From IMG/VR virus record IMGVR_UViG_3300027911_000029, positions 1-41,338 of that record: DNA of 41,338 nucleotides, one strand, 5' to 3'. Shown here one piece after another: positions 2,608 to 41,338 of the stretch. Position numbers and translations under genes: made by a program. Numbering within the stretch: the stretch's first letter is position 1; the number at the start of each line of letters is the position of its first letter. The notes beneath the pieces are model-generated. The model did no database searches, was not told where the DNA came from, and saw nothing but the letters and a program-made list of their open reading frames with translations. The stretch comes from a virus.

Positions 2608-5600
2608 TTAAGGGATGACGGTGGTGACTTCGTTCGAGTACGGGCTCTGCTGCGCGCCGACCTGCGCGGTGACGACGTAGTAGTACTGACCGCCGCTGAC
2701 CGAGAGGTCCTGAAAAGTTTGTGCGTTCCCATCGAGCGTCTGAATCGCCACATAAGGCCCGCCACTCACAAGGCCGCGGTAAACAATTTGTGAGGTCACT
2801 CCGACGGTCGGAGACTTGCGCCAGATCAGTGTGGCCGCGCCTTCGGTGCCCAGCACGCTCAGGAACGTGGGCGAGGAGATGCCGGCGGCCGAAGTAGTCT
2901 GCACCTGGTTGGAATAGCCGCCTTCGGCCGTCGCACTCAGCGCGCTCACCGCATAAAAATAGGTTTGCGCCTCGATGACGCTGCAGTCGGTGTAAGTCTC
3001 AGTCGCCGATGGCAGGGGCGTGAGCAGCGTTCCCAGAAACTCGCCGCCCACTTGCGAGCGATAAAGGTTCTGCCCGACGGTGGTGGTGCTGGGCGAAACT
3101 CGCCACACCAGCACCGAGCAGCCGGCCTGCTGCGTGACGCGCAGCCAGATCGGCGGCGCCGGCAGTTTGCTGCCGGTGCGGTTCAGCGAATCAGAGGTCA
3201 CCAGGGCATCAACCAGAAAGACTGGATTGCCCGCAGGAGTCACCGCCGCCAGCGCATCGGACGTAACCAGGCTCTCGCCAAAGTTGCGTGAGCCGGTGAA
3301 CTGCCGCAGCAGCGCATCGCCGGTGATGAGTGTCTCGCTGAGCGTGGTGAAGTTGCCCAGGCCTCCGATGGATAGCGAGTCGGCCGCGGCCAGGCTTTCG
3401 CCGGCGGCGCGCATCGCAGTGAACTGCCGCGTCAGCGAGTCGCTGGTGACAAGAGTTTCCGGTAGCGCGACGTGATGCGGCGAAACGTCGACCAGGCTGT
3501 CGCCAACGCTCAGACTTTCGGCCAGCGCGAGCGAGCCGGTGTGCTGGCGAGCGAGCGCGTCGCTGGTGGTCAGGTTCTCGCTCAGGACCTGCGCATGGGT
3601 AAACTGCCGCGCGATCGCATCGCCGACCGTCAGGCTTTCAGTGAAGACTTGCTGGTGTTTCGAGTTCACGCTCAGGGCATCGCTGCTGATCACGCTGTCG
3701 GCGAGACTGCGAAAGGCAGCGAACTGGCGGCCCAGTGCGTCTGAGGAAGCGACGCTATCGGACAGTGTTCGAGTGTGCGGCGACACGGTGGTCAGCGTGT
3801 CGAGCGTGATCAGGGTTTCGGCCAGGGCTTTCGCGCCGGCATATTGCCGGGCGATCGCGTCGCTCGTTGTCAGCGTCTCGCTCAGCGCCTGGGCATGCGT
3901 GAAGTGGCGTGCGATCGCATCGCTGGCGACGAGACTTTCGGTCAGGCCGATGTAGGGCACGAAATTGATACTCACGGCGTCGCCGGTCACCAGGCTCTCA
4001 CTCGGGTTACGAAAGGCGGTGAACTGGCGCGCCAGCGCATCGCTGGTGGTCAGCACCTGGCTGAGAGATCTCGATGCCACCATCTGACGCGCCAGCGCGT
4101 CGCTGGTGGTCAGTGACTCGCTCAGCGCTCGCGAAGCTGCGAAACTGCGCGCCAGGGCGTCGCTGGTGATGACGCTCTCGTTCAGGCTGGGCGTGTGGTC
4201 CACGTAGTTGGCGACCAGAGCGTCGCTGGTGCCGAAGGTATCGAGCCGGAAGCGGGAGGCGGAATACTGGCGCACCAGCACGTCGCTCGTGCCCAAGGTG
4301 TCAGCAGGGAAAAGGAATCCCGTGAACTGCCGCGCGATGGCGTCGCTGGTGCTCAGGTTTTCGGTCATTTGCCGGTTATAGACGGAGTCGGTGTCGATGC
4401 TGTCGCTGGTGCTCAGGCTCTCAGTTAAATTCGCGGCGTGGCCGCTGGTCCGCATGGCCGTGATCACCGAAACGTAGCTGGCAGCGTAAGCCGCGCAGGG
4501 CAGGTAGTTCGGATCGAAGGCGCAGAGCCAATCCTGGTTGTAAAGCTCGAGGTGCGTCGCGCCGATCTGCTTCATCAGGGGCACAAAATTAGTAAGCGAG
4601 CCGGTCTGGCTTTGCTGCGATCCCGCGGTGCACTGCGTCTGATCGCCGAGCGTGGTTTCCTGCGGGCAGCTCGCCGCCAGCGTCTGAAATTCATGCACGC
4701 CGGCGGTAGGGAAGTGGTGAAAGAGATAGCACTCGTTGCCGTCGCAATAGTTGCCGCCAGTTGAGGCGGTTCCACCATCGGCGAACCCGAAGGCGTTGAA
4801 TGCGATGGTGTCGTTCTGGGTCAGGCCCTGGCTGCCGAAACCGCCGCCATTCCCAGCCCCCCAGAAGCCTGCGGCATAGTCTGCTTCCGCATCGGCCCAG
4901 TCGTAGCCGATGACGCAGGAGGAAACCGCGGGAACGCAGGTTCCGTCGACACCGGCCATCAGCGGATAGGTGTTCGCCTGGTGTCCCATCGTCGAAAATT
5001 CGTGAGTGTAGAGAGCTGAGGCGTAATTGGTGATCGTGGTTTTGATCTGCGCGGTGCTCTTCGAGAAGTAGGTCTTCCACAGATTGATGCAGTGCGGGAA
5101 AACTTCGCCGCCCTGAAAAACGCCGATGCGCTGATACAAAATTTGCGGGTGGTAGGGCTGCGCCGCGAGGTACTGAATCGCCTGATCCTGAAACGCTTCC
5201 CATGCGGTGCTGTAGGGAATCGAAGGCGTCCAGGGATAGCCCGTCGTGTCGGTGTTGGTGTCGGACGTGGCCACATAGACGACGTCGGTGCCGACCAATC
5301 CATCGCCGGGATAAGTCGCGCCCTCGCCCGAACTCGAGCAGAAGGCCACCGGCATCACCGTGGTCGAGAGCGAGGTCGCGTAGGTCTTCGAGAAGACGTA
5401 GCACGGCGTGTGTTTGTTCGGCCCTGGACCGGCGCTGATCCCCGAGAAAATCACTCCCACCTTCGCGGTGGCCGGAAAATTCGAGTCGCTCAGAATCCCC
5501 GTGATGGCGGTGTTCATCGACGAGAAGTCGTAAGTCGCATGCGCCGTGCAGCCGGCATTGCTTGTCTCCAGGTCGGACCAGTTGAAGAGAATGGTCACGC

Positions 5601-5976
5601 CGTCGAACTGGCCGCTGGCGTAGACGTAGAGACTCACGTCGTCCTGGCATTGCTTGATGTTCGACGTGCCCTGCTCGGTGAATGTGGCGCCGCCCCAGCT
5701 CGTCGTCGAGCCGGATCCGGTGCTGAATGTCGGCTGCGATCCCGATCCTGTCGTGCCGGCCGTCGTCGCCTTGTAGAAATGCCCGTTCGTCGGACTGGGC
5801 ACAACCCACGCTTTCAGCGGATAGAGAGTGCTGGCTGCGACTGTGGGCGTGGTGAGCCCGCAGTTGATCTGCGACGTCGGCGGACCGAAGTCGAGCGCCT
5901 TGATCTGCGCGATGCTCGCTCCTGACGAGAGCAGCACCGCGCAGAAGGCAGCGAAGATGAGCGCGAGTCGACGCAC
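2608..5976 (-). CDS. Giant secreted protein: glycosidase-like domain, 21 x 20-residue repeats, two FN3-like domains
   Basis: An 1122-residue protein starting with GTG six bases after the previous stop, so translation is probably coupled. Residues 1-23 are a signal peptide (MRRLALIFAAFCAVLLSSGA, cut near SIAQ). About residues 25-95 contain the PTNGHFYKATTAG / GGATFTEQGTS module. Residues 100-500 look like a TIM-barrel glycoside-hydrolase-like domain: FDGVTILFNWSDLE near the start and GATHLELYNQDWL near the end. Residues about 512-942 are 21 tandem copies of ESLTTSDALARQF-x(7), and 942-1122 are two fibronectin-III-like domains. The architecture suggests a cell-surface or tail-surface adhesin or enzyme acting on glycans. 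Catalytic residues were not identified with certainty. It is the largest gene in the window. Confidence 0.7.
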   Translation of the reverse strand: MRRLALIFAAFCAVLLSSGASIAQIKALDFGPPTSQINCGLTTPTVAASTLYPLKAWVVPSPTNGHFYKATTAGTTGSGSQPTFSTGSGSTTSWGGATFTEQGTSNIKQCQDDVSLYVYASGQFDGVTILFNWSDLETSNAGCTAHATYDFSSMNTAITGILSDSNFPATAKVGVIFSGISAGPGPNKHTPCYVFSKTYATSLSTTVMPVAFCSSSGEGATYPGDGLVGTDVVYVATSDTNTDTTGYPWTPSIPYSTAWEAFQDQAIQYLAAQPYHPQILYQRIGVFQGGEVFPHCINLWKTYFSKSTAQIKTTITNYASALYTHEFSTMGHQANTYPLMAGVDGTCVPAVSSCVIGYDWADAEADYAAGFWGAGNGGGFGSQGLTQNDTIAFNAFGFADGGTASTGGNYCDGNECYLFHHFPTAGVHEFQTLAASCPQETTLGDQTQCTAGSQQSQTGSLTNFVPLMKQIGATHLELYNQDWLCAFDPNYLPCAAYAASYVSVITAMRTSGHAANLTESLSTSDSIDTDSVYNRQMTENLSTSDAIARQFTGFLFPADTLGTSDVLVRQYSASRFRLDTFGTSDALVANYVDHTPSLNESVITSDALARSFAASRALSESLTTSDALARQMVASRSLSQVLTTSDALARQFTAFRNPSESLVTGDAVSINFVPYIGLTESLVASDAIARHFTHAQALSETLTTSDAIARQYAGAKALAETLITLDTLTTVSPHTRTLSDSVASSDALGRQFAAFRSLADSVISSDALSVNSKHQQVFTESLTVGDAIARQFTHAQVLSENLTTSDALARQHTGSLALAESLSVGDSLVDVSPHHVALPETLVTSDSLTRQFTAMRAAGESLAAADSLSIGGLGNFTTLSETLITGDALLRQFTGSRNFGESLVTSDALAAVTPAGNPVFLVDALVTSDSLNRTGSKLPAPPIWLRVTQQAGCSVLVWRVSPSTTTVGQNLYRSQVGGEFLGTLLTPLPSATETYTDCSVIEAQTYFYAVSALSATAEGGYSNQVQTTSAAGISSPTFLSVLGTEGAATLIWRKSPTVGVTSQIVYRGLVSGGPYVAIQTLDGNAQTFQDLSVSGGQYYYVVTAQVGAQQSPYSNEVTTVIP
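3150..4440 (-). repeat. 21 tandem 60-bp repeats encoding ESLxTSDALARQF units
   Basis: Inside the 1122-residue protein, about 1.29 kb of DNA repeats with a 60-62 bp period. Each unit encodes a ~20-residue peptide with near-invariant S/G-D-A/S-L/I and a more variable second half. Copies vary at synonymous and non-synonymous positions, so the array is not freshly expanded. Similar ESL/SDS repeats occur in large microbial surface adhesins. Their regular length suggests a beta-strand solenoid or stalk holding the N-terminal domain away from a surface. Confidence 0.85.
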
Positions 5977-5982
5977 GCGGAA

Positions 5983-6522
5983 TTAAATGCTGATGGTCCA
6001 CGTGATGGTAAGGGTGTCGGTGTTGGCCAGGTTCACCTGCGTAAACTGCGCCTCGAAGACCATGGTGCCGGAACTCGAGGCGTTGAACATGCCCGCCTTC
6101 TGCACCGACTGCGAAGCCGTCGCCGTCCAGGTATGCGAGACCGTCCAGGTGGCCGTGGCGTTCGTGTGAGCGTAGGTTCCCTGGGCGCGGGCGCAGCCGT
6201 TGGTGGTGATTTCGCTGGCCAGCGTGCAGGTGGAAGATCCAGCCGCACAATCGCCGGCAGCAGGCGCCGTCGAGTCGTTGGTCAGGGCGATGTAATTCAC
6301 CGTGGCCGGAGGCGCGGAGGTGTTACCCATGGCGCTGGCTTGCCAGTCGGCGCCGCCGGTGGTGCGCAGGTTGTGAATCTCGTTGTCGTAGAAGACCGTT
6401 CCGTCGGCATGTTGGCCGACGATGTGAACGTTGACTTCGCGCGTGAGGTGAACTTCGGCGGTTTGAGCGATTGCGCTGACTGCGAACAGCAGCGCGGCGA
6501 GCAGTCCGAATATCTTTTTCAT
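5983..6522 (-). CDS. Secreted/structural beta-protein of a phage-associated family
   Basis: A 179-residue protein with a textbook signal peptide (MKKIFGLLAALLFAVSAIA before QT). The mature part resembles a domain frequent in phage structural clusters: EIHNLRTTGGADWQASAMG at about 48-66, NYIALTNDS at about 76-84, CARAQGTYAHTNATATWTV in the middle, VQKAGMFNAS, and a final LTITWTISI strand. The order of these short conserved strands is recognisable even where function is not. Four Cys in the mature part could form disulfides outside the cytoplasm. The ATG follows AAAGGAATCGCTCCC. It lies upstream of the giant repeat protein and may share its destination. Confidence 0.7.
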   Translation of the reverse strand: MKKIFGLLAALLFAVSAIAQTAEVHLTREVNVHIVGQHADGTVFYDNEIHNLRTTGGADWQASAMGNTSAPPATVNYIALTNDSTAPAAGDCAAGSSTCTLASEITTNGCARAQGTYAHTNATATWTVSHTWTATASQSVQKAGMFNASSSGTMVFEAQFTQVNLANTDTLTITWTISI

Positions 6523-15814: not shown

Positions 15815-16098
15815 ACGAATGCTTTCGGCTGTTATTCACCGCATGGCGCGGCGCGTGCCGTGAAACCTGGGGAACGACGTTTATTCTGCCTGCCAAAGTG
15901 GGGAATCGCAGCATTACCGAAGTGTGCGGGACTTCTGCGGGAAAGCGAGGGCTGATCATACCCATTCCCCGAAGGAGGAAAACCAAACGAGTACGAGAGA
16001 CTTTGAAGCATCCGGCCCCGTGGCGTCCAACACCACAGGGCCGAGTCGTACCGCCTTGGGCTGTGGCGTCCAACCCCACGGCTCAAGGGCCTCAATGC
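15815..16098. other. Non-coding, foreign-looking segment upstream of the tRNA
   Basis: About 285 bases with no credible gene on either strand; open frames here change composition and carry no ribosome site except an isolated GAAGGAGG at about 15971. It holds the twin hairpins at 16014-16088. Together with the tRNA and the transposase remnant it looks like a piece of bacterial chromosome rather than phage operon. Confidence 0.5.
16014..16088 (+). repeat. Two look-alike hairpins with identical GTGG-loop-CCAC cores
   Basis: Hairpin 1 is 16014-16042: GGCCC, one mismatch, GTGG, 9-nt loop CGTCCAACA, CCAC, mismatch, GGGCC. Hairpin 2 is 16054-16088: CCTTG, then GGCU paired with GGCU by G-C and G-U pairs, then GTGG, loop CGTCCAACC, CCAC and CAAGG. 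The cores GTGGCGTCCAAC(A/C)CCAC differ by one base, while the outer stems differ completely but still pair. That pattern points to selection for RNA (or cruciform) structure. Hairpin 2 ends 10 bases before the tRNA. Confidence 0.75.
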
Positions 16099-16201
16099 GC
16101 GGGCGTGGCGGAATTGGCATACGCGCTAGCTTTGGAAGCTAGTGGGGTTCTCTCTTGGCAGGGAGGCTAACCCCTTGAGGGTTCGATCCCCTCCGCCCGC
16201 A
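16099..16201 (+). tRNA. Class II tRNA with Leu-like body and UGG anticodon
   Basis: All arms can be drawn. The acceptor is GCGGGCG (16099-16105) with CGCCCGC (16194-16200) and discriminator A at 16201. The D-arm is GCG/CGC with a GG in the loop. The anticodon stem is CTAGC (16126-16130) with GCTAG (16138-16142), loop TTTGGAA, so the anticodon is TGG (16133-16135). The variable arm is 34 nt (16143-16176): GGGGTT/AACCCC plus an inner CTCTC/GGGAG helix. The T-arm is GAGGG-TTCGATC-CCCTC. The body and A73 fit tRNA-Leu, but UGG reads proline codons. No CCA is encoded. It stands on the strand opposite to its phage neighbours. Confidence 0.88.
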
Positions 16202-16216
16202 TTTCCAAAACCGAGC

Positions 16217-16450
16217 CTATTGTATCCCCAGTGGCTTGCGGAGTGTCAAACGCTTTCCGTCACAAGCCCTCAGTGCTGACTCTGCGCGTTCCGCGTCCGT
16301 CACCTTCCGATGGTTGTACCGAAAGTCGAATTCATTCAGATATTGCTGCAAGTACGGCACTCCGACGTGATGGTAGGTGCCATAGAGCCCGCGCTTTAAG
16401 AGCCCGAAATAGCCTTCCTTCGTCGCCCTCACGCAAAGCTGCCGCCCGAT
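16217..16450 (-). pseudogene. 3' remnant of an IS1595-like (ISXO2-type) transposase
   Basis: The frame ending at a TAG at 16217 encodes EGYFGLLKRGLYGTYHHVG, then YLQQYLNEFDFRYNHRKVTD and AERA...CDGKRLTLRKP. This is the C-terminal end of IS1595-family DDE transposases, including the last part of the catalytic region. The N-terminal two thirds, with the zinc ribbon and the first Asp residues, are missing: upstream of about 16435 the same frame no longer resembles transposase. No inverted repeats are visible. It is a dead fragment brought in with the tRNA segment, not an active element. Confidence 0.75.
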
Positions 16451-16503
16451 CCAAGATCTCGCCCCAGATTGTCTCCGAGTTCGGTTTGCGTGCGCTTTTC
16501 TTC
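16430..16503 (-). pseudogene. Truncated start of a small phage gene cut by the foreign segment
   Basis: Just after the DUF6745-like stop, a different frame reads KKSARKPNSETIWGEILDRA then AALREGDE before running into the transposase remnant out of frame. This short stretch looks like the N-terminus of a small helical phage protein. It has only a CTG (overlapping the TGA as CTGA) as possible start. I infer that a phage gene stood here and lost its 3' part when the host-like segment arrived. Confidence 0.35.
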
Positions 16504-18016
16504 AGCTCTGTTCCACCAGGCGTTTCAGATACTGCTCGCCGGTCATGCCGAACGTCGAAGCTACAGCGTTCAGCGGGGTCACAGCTTGGGGATCGCCGAG
16601 GCCGTCCTTCGCCAGCAGGCGCATCTCGGGATGCACTCGCAGAAAGTAAGGCTTCTTCGACCCATCGGGCTCGGGCGTGGAGTTGATGACCTTCACCATC
16701 ACCAGCGGTTCGTCGCCCGGCAACTCGGTGCGGTAGACCTCGCCGAATTCGTCTTCGGCGATCTTCTGCGCGCCGCTGTCGAGTAAATAGCGGGTGAGCC
16801 CGTAGCGCTCGATGAGAACGCGCCGCACTTCCGCATTCTCTTCGTCGGCAATATGCTTCACCGTGATCCATTCCGGCTTCACCACGGCGAAGGCCGGCAC
16901 CATCACGCCGTGCCAGAAGTAGAGATTCTCGACGTCGGACCGAAGCGCCGGGCCATCGACGCAGTGCAGGCGGCGAGTGCCAGCTAGGGTCTGCGCCACG
17001 CTCATGCCCGCACCACCGCGTTCGACGTGGACGTCAGGCTTCGCCACCCAGAAGAGCGTGTCCTCGGTGAAATGCAGGAACCACGCGCCCGCGACGAAGG
17101 CCTCGAAGATCGGCTTCGACCAGGCATGCACGGGCTCGGGAGATTGCAGTTGTAGCGCGCCGAGGTACGTGGTCGCGATCCAGGACAATTCCCAACGCCA
17201 CGACGACCATCCATAGGCCTGGACGCACCAAGCTGCGAATCGATGCAGCGAAGCTGCATCGATTCGCCCACCGTCGAGTGCGGCGAGTGCGTCGCGTGCG
17301 TCGAGTGCGGCGAGTGCGTCGCGTGCGTCGAGTGCGGCGAGTGCGTCGCGTGCGGCGAGTGCGGCGAGTGCGTCGCGTGCGTCGAGTGCGGCGAGTGCGG
17401 CGCGTGCGTCGCGTGCGGCGCGTGCGTCGCGTGCGTCGCGTGCGTCGAGTGCGTCGCGTGCGGCGCGTGCGTCGCGTGCGTCGAGTGCGTCGAGTGCGGC
17501 GCGTGCGTCGCGTGCGTCGAGTGCGTCGCGTGCGTCGAGTGCGGCGAGTGCGGCGCGTGCGTCGCGTGCGTCGAGTGCGTCGCGTGCGGCGCGTGCGTCG
17601 CGTGCGTCGCGTGCGTCGAGTGCGGCGCGTGCGGCGAGTGCGTCGAGTGCGTCGCGTGCGTCGAGTGCGTCGAGTGCGGCGCGTGCGGCGCGTGCGTCGA
17701 GTGCGTCGAGTGCGTCGCGTGCGGCGAGTGCGCGTGCGTCGATTGCGTCGATTGCGGCGAGTGCGGCGCGTGCGGCGCGTGCGGCGCGTGCGTCGCGTGG
17801 AATCACCTTATCGAGGACTTCCAACGCGTACTTCGCGAGCGATGGATGTTCGGCCAGGCTCCAGCCCTCGCGCAGGCGCACGACGTTGCGCTTCATGCCG
17901 AGCGCGCCCAGATAAACCCGCAGCGAGGCTTCAACTACGGGTTCATCGAGCGTGGCCGGATAATCGCAGGCCGCACTGAAGCGCTCAAGCAGCAGCGCGG
18001 GGCTAGTCGGCGACAT
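16502..18016 (-). CDS. DUF6745-like protein with a 58-unit (D/A)A(R/L) array
   Basis: A 504-residue protein. The start chosen is the ATG at 18014-18016 behind GGAGGCG; the longer frame overlaps the partner gene entirely. Residues 1-74 are an N-terminal helical part. Residues 75-247 are a three-residue repeat array (see separate entry). The C-terminal part resembles DUF6745: WSSWRWELSWIATTYLGA, then RLHCVDGPALRSDVENLYFW, ITVKHIADEENAEVRRVLIE, RYGLTRYLLDSGAQ, and VMVKVINSTPEPDGSKKPYF. The domain's function is unknown. Relatives I recall also carry Ala-rich short-period repeats before it. The gene overlaps its upstream partner by 14 nt. It may be a surface-independent cytoplasmic factor, as no signal peptide is present. 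Confidence 0.8.
   Translation of the reverse strand: MSPTSPALLLERFSAACDYPATLDEPVVEASLRVYLGALGMKRNVVRLREGWSLAEHPSLAKYALEVLDKVIPRDARAARAARAALAAIDAIDARALAARDALDALDARAARAALDALDARDALDALAARAALDARDARDARAARDALDARDARAALAALDARDALDARDARAALDALDARDARAARDALDARDARDARAARDARAALAALDARDALAALAARDALAALDARDALAALDARDALAALDGGRIDAASLHRFAAWCVQAYGWSSWRWELSWIATTYLGALQLQSPEPVHAWSKPIFEAFVAGAWFLHFTEDTLFWVAKPDVHVERGGAGMSVAQTLAGTRRLHCVDGPALRSDVENLYFWHGVMVPAFAVVKPEWITVKHIADEENAEVRRVLIERYGLTRYLLDSGAQKIAEDEFGEVYRTELPGDEPLVMVKVINSTPEPDGSKKPYFLRVHPEMRLLAKDGLGDPQAVTPLNAVASTFGMTGEQYLKRLVEQS
17276..17794 (-). repeat. 9-bp tandem array, 58 units, two variable positions per unit
   Basis: Minus-strand units follow G(A/C)C GCA C(G/T)C, encoding DAR, DAL, AAR or AAL. 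Apart from two ATC variants (AAI, DAI) and one 6-bp unit near the 5' end, every change is at these two positions. At the 3' end a 27-bp super-unit (DAR-DAL-AAL) is repeated. The array maintains frame throughout. The complementary frames are also stop-free, which produces long artificial ORFs such as poly-RRV. Confidence 0.95.
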
Positions 18017-18314
18017 TGCGAATCGCCTCCGGCGTGTACTCGCGCTGGATCTCGACTTCGTAATTGCCCGCCAGCAGCGTGATGGGCGCATGCTCTTCGT
18101 GCACCACGCGCACGCCCTCTTCGCCGACGCGCAGGTAGAGGCCGTTCTCGATTTCGAGAACTTCGGTGTGTGTGAGGTCTTCGACCTTATGAGCATGGCC
18201 GGTCACTTCGCCGTAGGCGAGAATGCCGTTGAGTCGTGGCTGAGCTGCCTGCTTCGGCAGGCTCTGGATGCGGCGGATCAGAACATCGCCCTGACGGTAG
18301 ATCGCGTTTTTCAT
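18003..18314 (-). CDS. Small conserved partner of the DUF6745-like gene
   Basis: A 103-residue protein starting at an ATG behind CTAGGAGTGAAACC. It shows the recognisable small-family pattern YRQGDVLIRRI at the N-terminus, LAYGEVTGHAHKVEDL in the middle, HEEHAPITLLAGNYEVEIQR and EYTPEAIRNVAD at the end. The conserved GHAH and HEEH histidines could bind a metal. I recall this family next to DUF6745-type genes in bacteria, suggesting the two act together. Its stop overlaps the start of the DUF6745-like gene. Function unknown. Confidence 0.8.
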   Translation of the reverse strand: MKNAIYRQGDVLIRRIQSLPKQAAQPRLNGILAYGEVTGHAHKVEDLTHTEVLEIENGLYLRVGEEGVRVVHEEHAPITLLAGNYEVEIQREYTPEAIRNVAD

Positions 18315-18527
18315 TGGTTTCACTCCTAGAGTTAGGGTGGCAGCGGTCGCCTGCAATCCGGCGACAGATCGAACAGCGGAGAAAAAGCATTTCGAACAGA
18401 AAGGCTTGCGCATTCCCGTGCGCAGATCAGTCAGGAACGCAGACGTCGACGCGCGGCAGTTGCGGCAGGCGCGCTCCCGCACGCGCGTTGAAAACGTCCA
18501 CTCAAAATAAGTGCGCCTTGACTTCAT
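18315..18527 (-). other. In-frame zinc-finger-like extension upstream of the partner gene
   Basis: The frame of the 103-residue gene stays open upstream to an ATG at 18527. It encodes FEWTFSTRVRERACRNCRAS, then an FCSKCFF pair, i.e. two CxxC knuckles about 25 residues apart. The stretch before the internal ATG (TAATLTLGVKP) is encoded by the ribosome site region and looks non-protein. Either a 174-residue longer form is made, or a former separate zinc-finger gene has lost its stop codon. Confidence 0.45.
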
Positions 18528-18556
18528 AGCTTCTCACACGCCCTTCAGGAAAAAAG

Positions 18557-18787
18557 TTACGCGGCTCGCCCGCCGCTGTCGCGCAGCTTCTGGCGCGCCT
18601 GGTCGGCTTCGTCTTCAACGCCGATCCACCAGTCGTCGACCTCTTTGCGGCCGCGCTCATAGCCGGCATCGCAGCCACGCGTGTATCCGGTGCGGTCGCC
18701 TTCTTTCTCGCCAACCTTGTAGCCAGCTCGCCATGCGGCCAGCGCCACCAGCAGGATTACGATCGCTTCGATCCAGATGTCACTCAT
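18557..18787 (-). CDS. Small membrane-anchored protein
   Basis: A 76-residue protein starting at the ATG inside ATGA overlap with the upstream stop (18784-18787), behind AAGGTGACAGC. An N-terminal hydrophobic segment (WIEAIVILLVALAAWRAGYK, residues 4-23) is followed by a charged, Gly-rich, helical cytoplasmic part (GEKEGDRTGYTRGCDAGYER). The GY/GR periodicity resembles small phage membrane proteins, but I cannot assign a function. Confidence 0.65.
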   Translation of the reverse strand: MSDIWIEAIVILLVALAAWRAGYKVGEKEGDRTGYTRGCDAGYERGRKEVDDWWIGVEDEADQARQKLRDSGGRAA

Positions 18788-23639: not shown

Positions 23640-24155
23640 CTAGCTCGCGTGCTTACTCCGGCGCCAGAGTGTCGTCTTCGACGGCCCGCGCTCGCCGATC
23701 TTCGGCCCTGGTTTCTTCGCGCCCAGTTTCTTCATGCCGTTGCGGATCCGCTCCGCGATCAGGCTGCGCTCCAACTCCGCGACGGCGCCCAGGATGGTGA
23801 AGACCAGCTTGCCGTAGGGCGTCGAGGTGTCGATCGATTCCGTCAGGCTTACGAAGTCGATCTTCAGCGCCTGGAACTTTTCGAGCGAGTTGACCAGGTG
23901 GCGAACCGAGCGCGCGAAGCGATCGAACTTCCACACCACGATCGCTTTGAAATCGCGCCGGCCGCGTTCCGCGTCGGCCATCATCTCGTCGAGGGCTGGG
24001 CGCGATTCCTTCGCGCCGCTCCAGCCGTGGTCGACGTATTCGTGCGTGATCTCCCAGCCGCGGGTGCGGCACATCTCACGCAGGGGCTGCAGCTGGGCCT
24101 CTGGATCCTGGTGGGTGTGGGCCTTGGAAACCCGCGCGTAGAGGGCCACTTTCAT
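23640..24155 (-). CDS. Serine recombinase (resolvase/invertase type)
   Basis: A 171-residue small serine recombinase. The catalytic Ser is S10 in KVALYARVSK. The core follows with WEITHEYVDHGWSGAKESRP, then FKAIVVWKFDRFARSVRHLV carrying the conserved Arg residues, and GKLVFTILGAVAELERSLIA and ERIRNGM of the long E-helix. The C-terminal helix-turn-helix is short (ERGPSKTTLWRRSKHAS), below the usual length. It could act as a resolvase, a DNA invertase or, less likely, an integrase; the large C-terminal domain of phage serine integrases is absent. A GTTTGTTAACTAAC site lies eight bases before its ATG. Confidence 0.88.
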   Translation of the reverse strand: MKVALYARVSKAHTHQDPEAQLQPLREMCRTRGWEITHEYVDHGWSGAKESRPALDEMMADAERGRRDFKAIVVWKFDRFARSVRHLVNSLEKFQALKIDFVSLTESIDTSTPYGKLVFTILGAVAELERSLIAERIRNGMKKLGAKKPGPKIGERGPSKTTLWRRSKHAS

Positions 24156-39852: not shown

Positions 39853-41338
39853 CTACTGCACGTAACTGATCCAGCCGACCGCGGTCGGGCTGGTGCCGGT
39901 GAGGACGTAGCAAAGCGCGTTGGCCGAAGGGACGACCGGGCCAGGGCCTGGCCATGAAATCCCCGGCGCAGCGGTGGTCAGCGCCACCGCCTGCGTGAGC
40001 ACCGTGGTGCCGGTCGCACAATTGGTGCCCGTGCCGTATTCGAGAGAGAGAGTTGGAGTCGTGCCACCGCCCTGAATGTAAGCGGCGCAAATATAGATTT
40101 TCTTTCCGGCAGAGAGCGCCACGATCTGGGTCAGCGAAGTGGTCGAAGCGTTGAGTGCAACTGAGTTCAGCGCCCCGTTGTTCGAGCTGCAGCCGTTGGT
40201 CGTCGATCGAAATGCGGTGTAGAGGTTGCCCGCGTTGTCTTGCTGCAGCGGCAGCGTCTGCCCCGTCGAAGGCCCTGGTGCGGCCGAGTTGTACATGCCG
40301 CCGATCACGTCGGTATAGTTCGGCGCCGTGCCGGGCACAGTGCCGGCCATCGCCGTCGCCGGCAGGTTGGAGAGCGGAGACGCGGGCAGCGTGGCCCAGT
40401 AAGGCGTGACGGTGGCCGTTCCGGTGATCGCCGTCGAGAGATCAGCGCGCACGTTCACAAAGCCCTGGGTGAGAATCAAAAAGGGCTGGTTCGTGGTCGC
40501 GACCAGCGTGTACGGATTCGTGAGCTGCGCCAGCGTGTTCGGGTTGAGGACCTGCGCGACCGGGATGGTCACCCAGTTCACGTTGTCATAAGTGCCTTGC
40601 CAGGTGACCACGCCGCCGGTGACGGTCGACGTCTGATCGAGTTGCGCCAGCACCGCGGGTGCGCCGGCGAGCTGCCCTTGCGTCGTGGTGCCGGTCGGAT
40701 ATTGAAACGTTCCGGCGCCGGTCGCGCTGGTCCAGGCTGCACCCGTCTTGAATTGGATCCCAGGAAAGTTGAGCTGATTGCCGGCCTGATCGAGCTGCTC
40801 GGCCACGGTCTGCGCAGTTGTCGGTGCCGGCTGCGAGGCATTGTATTGCCCGAGGATCGCGACGCCGTTGGTGGGCGCGGATCCCGCGGCCACCGTGGAA
40901 TCGAGAGAGGCGCCGGTGTTGCCGACAACGCCGACCTTTTGCACGCCGCTCGCGGCCGTCGCAGCCGAAGAACCGCCGATCTGCGCCACGTTGACGGATT
41001 GGTTCGCAGCCAGCGCGACGTTCAGCGCTGCCGTGGTGTTGGGCTGGTTGGGGCTGATCTGAACCACAATCGATTTGTCGGCCGCGGCCGCAGCGGTGCT
41101 CGCAGCCTTCACTGCGACCGGTCCGTTGGTGCCGTCGGTGAGCGCCTCATAGAGCGGATTGGTCGCGCCCGTGGAAGCGCCGCCGACCTGGTTCACGTTG
41201 ACGCTCTGATTCGCGGCGAGAGAGGAATCGTTGGAGACGGTGACGCGCGGAATTCCAGCGCCGCCCGCGCCTGTGCCGGTTACGGGGCTGCTGCCGCCGA
41301 TCTGGGCCACGTTGACCGACTGATTCGCAGCCAGCGCG
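39853..41338 (-). CDS. 3' part of the large repeat-containing virion-operon protein (enters at the window end)
   Basis: The frame is open to base 41338, so the start lies outside. The first residues (ALAANQSVNVAQIGGSSPVT) continue the module seen at 1-150. Copies of ANQSVNV(N/A)Q(V/I)GG are visible at about 41305, 41200 and 40990. A beta-rich region follows (VVTWQGTYDNVNWVTIPVAQ then FVNVRADLSTAITGTATVTP), and a C-terminal domain has ALSAGKKIYICAAYIQGGGT with four Cys. This resembles secreted or surface beta-domains. With the 280 residues at 1-840 and about 22 missing, the protein would have about 797 residues. Confidence 0.75.
   Translation of the reverse strand, partial: ALAANQSVNVAQIGGSSPVTGTGAGGAGIPRVTVSNDSSLAANQSVNVNQVGGASTGATNPLYEALTDGTNGPVAVKAASTAAAAADKSIVVQISPNQPNTTAALNVALAANQSVNVAQIGGSSAATAASGVQKVGVVGNTGASLDSTVAAGSAPTNGVAILGQYNASQPAPTTAQTVAEQLDQAGNQLNFPGIQFKTGAAWTSATGAGTFQYPTGTTTQGQLAGAPAVLAQLDQTSTVTGGVVTWQGTYDNVNWVTIPVAQVLNPNTLAQLTNPYTLVATTNQPFLILTQGFVNVRADLSTAITGTATVTPYWATLPASPLSNLPATAMAGTVPGTAPNYTDVIGGMYNSAAPGPSTGQTLPLQQDNAGNLYTAFRSTTNGCSSNNGALNSVALNASTTSLTQIVALSAGKKIYICAAYIQGGGTTPTLSLEYGTGTNCATGTTVLTQAVALTTAAPGISWPGPGPVVPSANALCYVLTGTSPTAVGWISYVQ
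40975..41338 (-). repeat. Module repeat shared with window start (1-150)
   Basis: A segment of about 150 bp starting with the ANQSVNVNQVGGASTGATNP codons (about 41220 downward) is close to 88% identical to bases 1-150, by eye. It includes the strings AGCGGTGCTCGC, CACTGCGACCGGTCCG and CCGCCGACCTGGTTCACGTT. This repeat is the probable reason why assembly ended here. Confidence 0.8.

Follow-up and report, generated by a model that had tools for sequence, protein, structure and literature searches.

Natural tRNAs that join the body of one amino acid's tRNA to the anticodon of another are rare, and the phage locus described here contains one. The window, that is, the whole stretch of DNA analysed, is a 41,338-base virus record whose minus strand codes for terminase, portal, prohead protease, major capsid and tail genes. 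The locus comprises:

16014 to 16088, plus strand: tandem pair of hairpins immediately 5' of the tRNA (repeat pair 16020-16036 / 16063-16079), each loop with GTCCAAC, complementary to TTGGA of the anticodon loop
16099 to 16201, plus strand: class II tRNA with a Leu-type body and anticodon TGG at 16133-16135 (Rfam match, cloverleaf parse, isotype profile)

An earlier note on this DNA had described an intact cloverleaf with a 7-bp acceptor, a 5-bp T-stem with loop TTCGATC, a 34-nt variable arm and TGG as anticodon. The Rfam tRNA model (RF00005) matched 16099-16201 on the plus strand at 54.6 bits (E = 3.6e-9), the sole tRNA found in the window, and parsing bore out the described structure: acceptor stem GCGGGCG/CGCCCGC (7 bp), T-stem GAGGG/CCCTC (5 bp, loop TTCGATC), and anticodon stem CTAGC/GCTAG closing the loop TTTGGAA, in which TGG at 16133-16135 is followed by A37. 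The cloverleaf is 7/5, with only Watson-Crick pairs in the acceptor, anticodon and T stems; the variable arm occupies 34 nt (16143-16176), and the 3' end reads C72 and then A73, with CCA not encoded. ARAGORN at default settings did not detect this tRNA, which fits a variable arm longer than the program's usual range. A second metagenome yielded a 13-kb contig with the same tRNA, 99.6-99.7% identical to the window over the shared 13 kb; the gene is therefore not a single-read sequencing error, and the worry that it might be absent from independent reads is removed. No DNA similarity to the window tRNA region was found in annotated phage records. The complementarity of the upstream hairpin loops to the anticodon loop may be due to chance.

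To assign the body, anticodon-masked profiles were built from 28 Leu, 28 Ser and 28 Pro tRNAs of Acidobacteriota genomes; leave-one-out assignment was correct for 84/84. The masked window tRNA scored 70.5 bits as Leu, 7.1 as Ser and 0.1 as Pro, in agreement with the earlier claim of a Leu-type body with A73 beneath a proline anticodon. The D arm, the acceptor and T-arm profile, A73 and the V-stem layout are those of tRNA-Leu. The anticodon (TGG, where tRNA-Leu has NAG or YAA) and the size of the variable arm are not; at 34 nt the arm is twice the normal Leu length (11-17 nt in 28 ordinary Acidobacteriota tRNA-Leu). An ordinary tRNA-Pro, with its short variable loop and with G72 and G37 (28/28 Acidobacteriota Pro tRNAs), was ruled out by the 34-nt arm, C72, A37 and the Pro score of 0.1, and an ordinary tRNA-Ser, with G73 and a Ser-type D arm, by A73 (0/28 Acidobacteriota Ser tRNAs) and the Ser score of 7.1. 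Neither a best score as tRNA-Pro nor homologues with a normal Leu anticodon, the remaining doubts attached to the earlier claim, were encountered. Bacterial LeuRS recognises its tRNA by A73 and the core, without reading the anticodon, and bacterial ProRS relies on G72 and the anticodon. Leucine is for this reason the expected charge, and the window tRNA would probably receive it from the host LeuRS. A37 and the 34-nt variable arm might hinder its use by the ribosome.

The surroundings of the tRNA suggested where it came from. Three further features were mapped:

15861 to 18584, no strand: stretch absent from the relatives L079 and L081 (tblastx synteny)
16217 to 16465, minus strand: remnant of an IS1595/ISXO2-family transposase, C-terminal part only (PF12762, E = 2.8e-10 on 16217-16432; tblastn)
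16502 to 18196, minus strand: gene for a DUF6745 protein, possible cargo, inside the inserted stretch (PF20530, E = 9.2e-36)

Transposases of the tRNA-carrying elements described below matched the window at ~16226-16465 with 44-48% identity (tblastn). The remnant lies 16-25 nt beyond the 3' end of the tRNA, and the two 3' ends face each other. In L079 and L081, the segments matching the window up to 15,861 and from 18,584 onward lie ~0.43 kb apart versus 2.7 kb in the window, which places the tRNA, the transposase remnant and the DUF6745 gene in an acquired stretch. We read 15861-18584 as a putative acquired, degraded tRNA transposon together with other cargo. A search of the window for terminal repeats gave none that was convincing and none that scored near the known ones; because no terminal repeat was found in the inserted stretch, the element appears degraded, and its presence is deduced from the transposase remnant and the insertion rather than from intact ends. 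Of the marks of an IS1595 element, the window copy thus has the transposase, as a remnant, with terminal repeats not detected. A search of the insert for the winged-helix gene that accompanies the tRNA in other elements (see below) also found none. Six related phage contigs (terminase 73-85% identical; several are fragments) showed no tRNA. The search for the same gene in related phages and hosts, as earlier proposed, thus came out negative in six phage relatives and positive in IS1595-family transposons, which carry similar tRNAs. The Leu body and Pro anticodon of the earlier account stand; what it missed is the transposon context, namely the adjoining IS1595 remnant and the relatives that are IS1595 passengers. 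The window tRNA likely derives from a transposon rather than from a phage tRNA set.

Several other features of the window were recorded. The DUF6745 reading frame (16502-18196, minus strand) contains a long tandem array of 9-nt units at 17164-17700; the alignment of the sister contig L017 breaks here into two pieces that overlap, suggesting a change in copy number. A protein of 1122 aa without a PHROG match (2608-5976, minus strand) has a 60-nt periodic repeat at ~3241-4425. The window ends (1-131 and 41086-41216) form a 131-nt direct repeat of 91% identity in a region of repetitive reading frames, probably protein repeats rather than terminal redundancy. The early region codes for a 171-aa serine recombinase N-terminal domain of integrase/invertase type (23640-24155, PF00239).

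The window copy may be a relic of a dead transposon with no present function, a reading compatible with the transposon origin and falling just short of an even chance: a relic is almost as likely here as a working gene. The transposase is cut down to its C-terminal part, terminal repeats and winged-helix gene were not found, and related phages manage without the tRNA. Against this, all cloverleaf stem pairs are intact in both known copies; since the copies are near-identical, the intact stems may just reflect a recent insertion.

Whether the association with IS1595 is general was examined in two kinds of search. A pattern search for Leu-type tRNAs with a TGG anticodon matched a number of genome loci as well as two viral contigs, L017 and L025. 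Among viral contigs, sequences identical to the anticodon arm mostly proved to be unrelated. An IS1595 transposase lay within 1.5 kb of 6/11 distinct pattern-found class II UGG tRNAs, compared with 1/89 ordinary Leu/Ser/Pro tRNA loci (p = 2.6e-6). The other 5/11 had no IS1595 nearby. Class II UGG tRNAs at the loci L054, L059/L065, L063 and L068 (Omnitrophota, Prevotella, Latescibacterota and Bacteroidales) likewise have no IS1595 close by, so this mismatch also occurs outside these transposons. Anticodon-blind searches were made by transposase in Acidobacteriota, Hydrogenedentota, Pseudomonadota and viral contigs, and by terminal repeat, and the resulting loci were scanned for tRNAs with ARAGORN, Rfam and a custom scanner. 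Twenty elements with a class II tRNA nearby were recovered:

UGG (13 elements): L090, L106, L110, L175, L177, L278, L279, L280, L285, L295, L296, L299, L303
AGG (1): L083
UGC (4): L107, L108, L286, L287
CGC (1): L171
GGA (1): L300

A Leu anticodon was found in 0/20, the elements being related by terminal-repeat or transposase ancestry and not independent draws. Where scored, the tRNA bodies were Leu-type except in L110, which is Ser-type with G73 and UGG, and L300 has a Ser anticodon (GGA) on a Leu body; Leu identity is thus not universal across the element tRNAs. Relatives of the window element that bear such tRNAs come from three or more bacterial phyla and from several further phages. In one Terriglobia genome an element is present in two copies that have diverged (84% over 2 kb, a stretch that includes the tRNA). 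At L064 a similar tRNA and an NYN-domain gene were found with no transposase detected adjoining them.

Some element tRNAs and nearby tRNA-like genes are unusual in other ways. All UGC carriers (L107, L108, L286, L287) and L110 have the T-loop TCCGA, with C for the near-universal T55. A second odd tRNA stands beside the UGG one at L060 (6873-6946; class I body, anticodon GCU, C33) and at L280 (4755-4841; class II body, apparently CGC), pairs reminiscent of the 'polycistrons of irregular tRNAs' of PMC7609411. In L142, from a Hydrogenedentota genome, two irregular tRNA-like genes of class I (1834-1904 and 2833-2905) lie close to a fragment of an IS1595 transposase; their apparent anticodons are UUA and UGC, the UGC one with C33. 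On the viral contig L330, a class II tRNA of Ser-like type with the Ile anticodon UAU lies at 5078-5170, ~1.7 kb from an IS1595 transposase, and recalls allo-tRNA(UAU).

Ten elements have terminal inverted repeats (consensus near CGGAAGTATGTACTTTACGCAA) that enclose the tRNA and are themselves flanked by exact 8-bp target duplications. These are 8 of the 20 anticodon-blind elements plus L028 and L043, which were found by anticodon pattern. Their target duplications are:

L106: TTTGCTAA
L110: TCTGCTCA
L108: GTTTAGTT
L084/L028: TTTCGGGA
L043: GAATCCGC
L277/L177: CAGATTTG
L279: TAATTTTC
L296: TAAGCAAA
L278: TCTTTCCT
L285: CCATCGCC

Intact relatives accordingly have the PF12762 transposase, terminal inverted repeats and 8-bp target duplications of the IS1595 family. 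A terminal repeat of the L043 type was sought in other viral contigs and none was found.

The tRNA is inherited together with the element. When 20 of these tRNAs were aligned with the variable arm excluded, 98.8% of stem cells in the alignment were paired and compensatory changes were present at 19/20 pairs, which shows a cloverleaf maintained across the family; Leu tRNA ancestry contributes to this pairing. On a tree of 115 transposases, 20/21 tRNA carriers fell within one 49-row clade, and 14/18 rows of an inner clade with 100/100 support were tRNA-positive (15 with the tRNA of L285 counted). The Ala-anticodon carriers of this inner clade form their own subclade. Ten changes were counted on the tree, compared with 19.6 after shuffling (0/500). 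Because the tRNA carriers cluster and the Ala-anticodon carriers form a subclade, the anticodon travels with the transposase; the two are co-inherited.

Cargo genes beside the tRNA vary. A coiled-coil and winged-helix protein, encoded on the tRNA's strand, was found by HMM in seven carriers (L025, L030, L106, L107, L108, L110, L286), six of which were the model's own seeds; the model had no match in the tRNA-free loci scanned. L177 and L296 have proteins that resemble this type by eye, and the L106 and L030 proteins have a HARE-HTH match under the cut-off. An NYN-domain gene is present in L028, L090 and L064, and in L279 an XRE + ImmA/IrrE-type protein is encoded 6 nt from the tRNA. No protein family is common to all tRNA elements. 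The intact viral element L177 also has two small genes (5425-6126) that look like a HicA/HicB toxin-antitoxin pair by eye, with no Pfam match.

We consider it probable that a lineage of IS1595-family (ISXO2-like) transposons carries the tRNA as a passenger, and that the host charges it with leucine, enabling it to misread proline codons. Intact relatives are made up of terminal inverted repeats, transposase, class II tRNA and usually other cargo, and the tRNA of many elements has as its neighbour a gene for a small coiled-coil/winged-helix protein, for an XRE/ImmA-type regulator or for an NYN-domain protein. The window tRNA would have entered the phage with such an element, which then lost its ends and most of its transposase and left the tRNA intact. 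Element tRNAs would be transcribed and processed by the host, whose LeuRS would add leucine on account of the Leu body and A73, without the G72 of tRNA-Pro. With its UGG anticodon the tRNA would then decode CCA and possibly further CCN codons, so that leucine would replace proline at a low level; the adjoining regulator may control this substitution. Missense decoding of this kind, by a tRNA that carries leucine and is controlled by the element, would be the simplest remaining mechanism. More tentatively, with the odds somewhat against it, this widespread lineage may have a dedicated missense-tRNA module, a class II tRNA with a Pro or Ala anticodon that often adjoins a gene for a DNA-binding or RNase-fold protein, causing low-level Pro/Ala to Leu/Ser substitution that aids persistence of the element. 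We infer charging, transcription, decoding and benefit to the element from sequence comparison.

The main rival to missense decoding accepts the same transposon origin and gives the tRNA no decoding role: it would be a decoy or antidote for an anticodon-loop RNase, or the RNA partner of a regulator, in an arrangement like an addiction module with the adjacent RNase-like or DNA-binding protein. This fits the NYN RNase-fold neighbours, the XRE + ImmA/IrrE-type protein so close to the L279 tRNA and the winged-helix proteins on the tRNA's strand, and the very long variable arms and the TCCGA T-loops suggest weak translational selection. On the other hand, the elements lack one common protein family, and a tRNA acting purely as a decoy could do without a complete acceptor stem, A73 and fully compensated stems. 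We regard this rival as unlikely, with roughly one chance in a handful.

A phage-adapted tRNA that aids phage translation or recodes CCA as Leu is a highly improbable reading. The tRNA does belong to a viral record that also encodes terminase, portal, capsid and tail proteins, and a role in phage translation had been suggested earlier. Recoding was not supported: residues of relatives aligned with phage CCA codons are Pro in 51/58 cases (88%) and Leu in 0/58, which rules it out in the phage and already contradicts this reading; CCA is also rare in the phage (4.8 per 1000 codons), and phage relatives show no tRNA. Recoding inside the transposases was rejected as well, since their CCA codons are not systematically placed at Leu positions. 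One C-terminal site has CCA in three related transposases and Leu in many others, which we read as common descent. The phage and transposase alignments together indicate that the tRNA is not required for any gene tested. Weakest of all, and scarcely credible, is that the IS1595 link reflects a target preference for insertion next to tRNA-Leu genes: the tRNA often adjoins the transposase gene and L064 has its tRNA and NYN gene with no transposase detected, but in ten elements the tRNA is enclosed by the target duplications, Leu anticodons were not seen, IS1595 was nearby in 0/30 ordinary Leu loci, and the anticodon tracks the transposase tree.

The preferred reading, a tRNA passenger of IS1595-family transposons, turns scattered mismatched tRNAs into a defined, clonable and testable mobile element with target duplications and an anticodon inherited along the transposase tree. 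It accounts for the disagreement between anticodon and body in some genome annotations, and the elements offer natural Leu-bodied missense tRNAs for genetic-code work. If the tRNAs are charged, the elements would be natural mistranslation vectors between bacteria and phages; if the missense-module reading is true, they would be the first known case of a natural mobile element that carries and disseminates ambiguity of the genetic code.

Compared with known systems, the elements share with passenger-carrying insertion sequences of the IS1595/ISXO2 type the PF12762 transposase with its zinc ribbon (PF12760), terminal inverted repeats, 8-bp duplications and cargo, and are set apart by the tRNA passenger. 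We know of no described IS1595/ISXO2 member with a tRNA, and a search of published open-access papers did not find one; passenger-carrying insertion sequences and mismatched class II tRNAs are each known, and their combination appears undescribed. With phage-encoded tRNA genes, the window tRNA has in common its place in a tailed-phage genome; it differs in being single, anticodon-mismatched, next to a transposase remnant, absent from sister phages and unmatched to codon need. A laboratory missense tRNA-Ser with a proline anticodon causes mistranslation in yeast (PMC6827378); the proline anticodon and a synthetase that does not need the anticodon are shared, but the element tRNAs are natural, mostly Leu-based and mobile, whereas the laboratory ones are engineered and Ser-based. 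Allo-tRNAs are likewise class II tRNAs with anticodon and body mismatched, from soil bacteria including Acidobacteria; their acceptor branches are 8/4 or 9/3, their identity is mostly Ser (or Ala) and their anticodons are many; one overlaps a transposon-related reading frame, and a link to transposable elements has been suggested (review, Krahn, Fischer and Soll 2020, PMC7609411). The likeness to allo-tRNAs drawn in the earlier note does not extend to allo-tRNAs as published, the window tRNA being 7/5 and Leu-type with A73. Unlike allo-tRNAs, the element tRNAs have 7/5 branches, mostly Leu bodies and almost only Pro and Ala anticodons, and they reside inside defined IS1595 elements.
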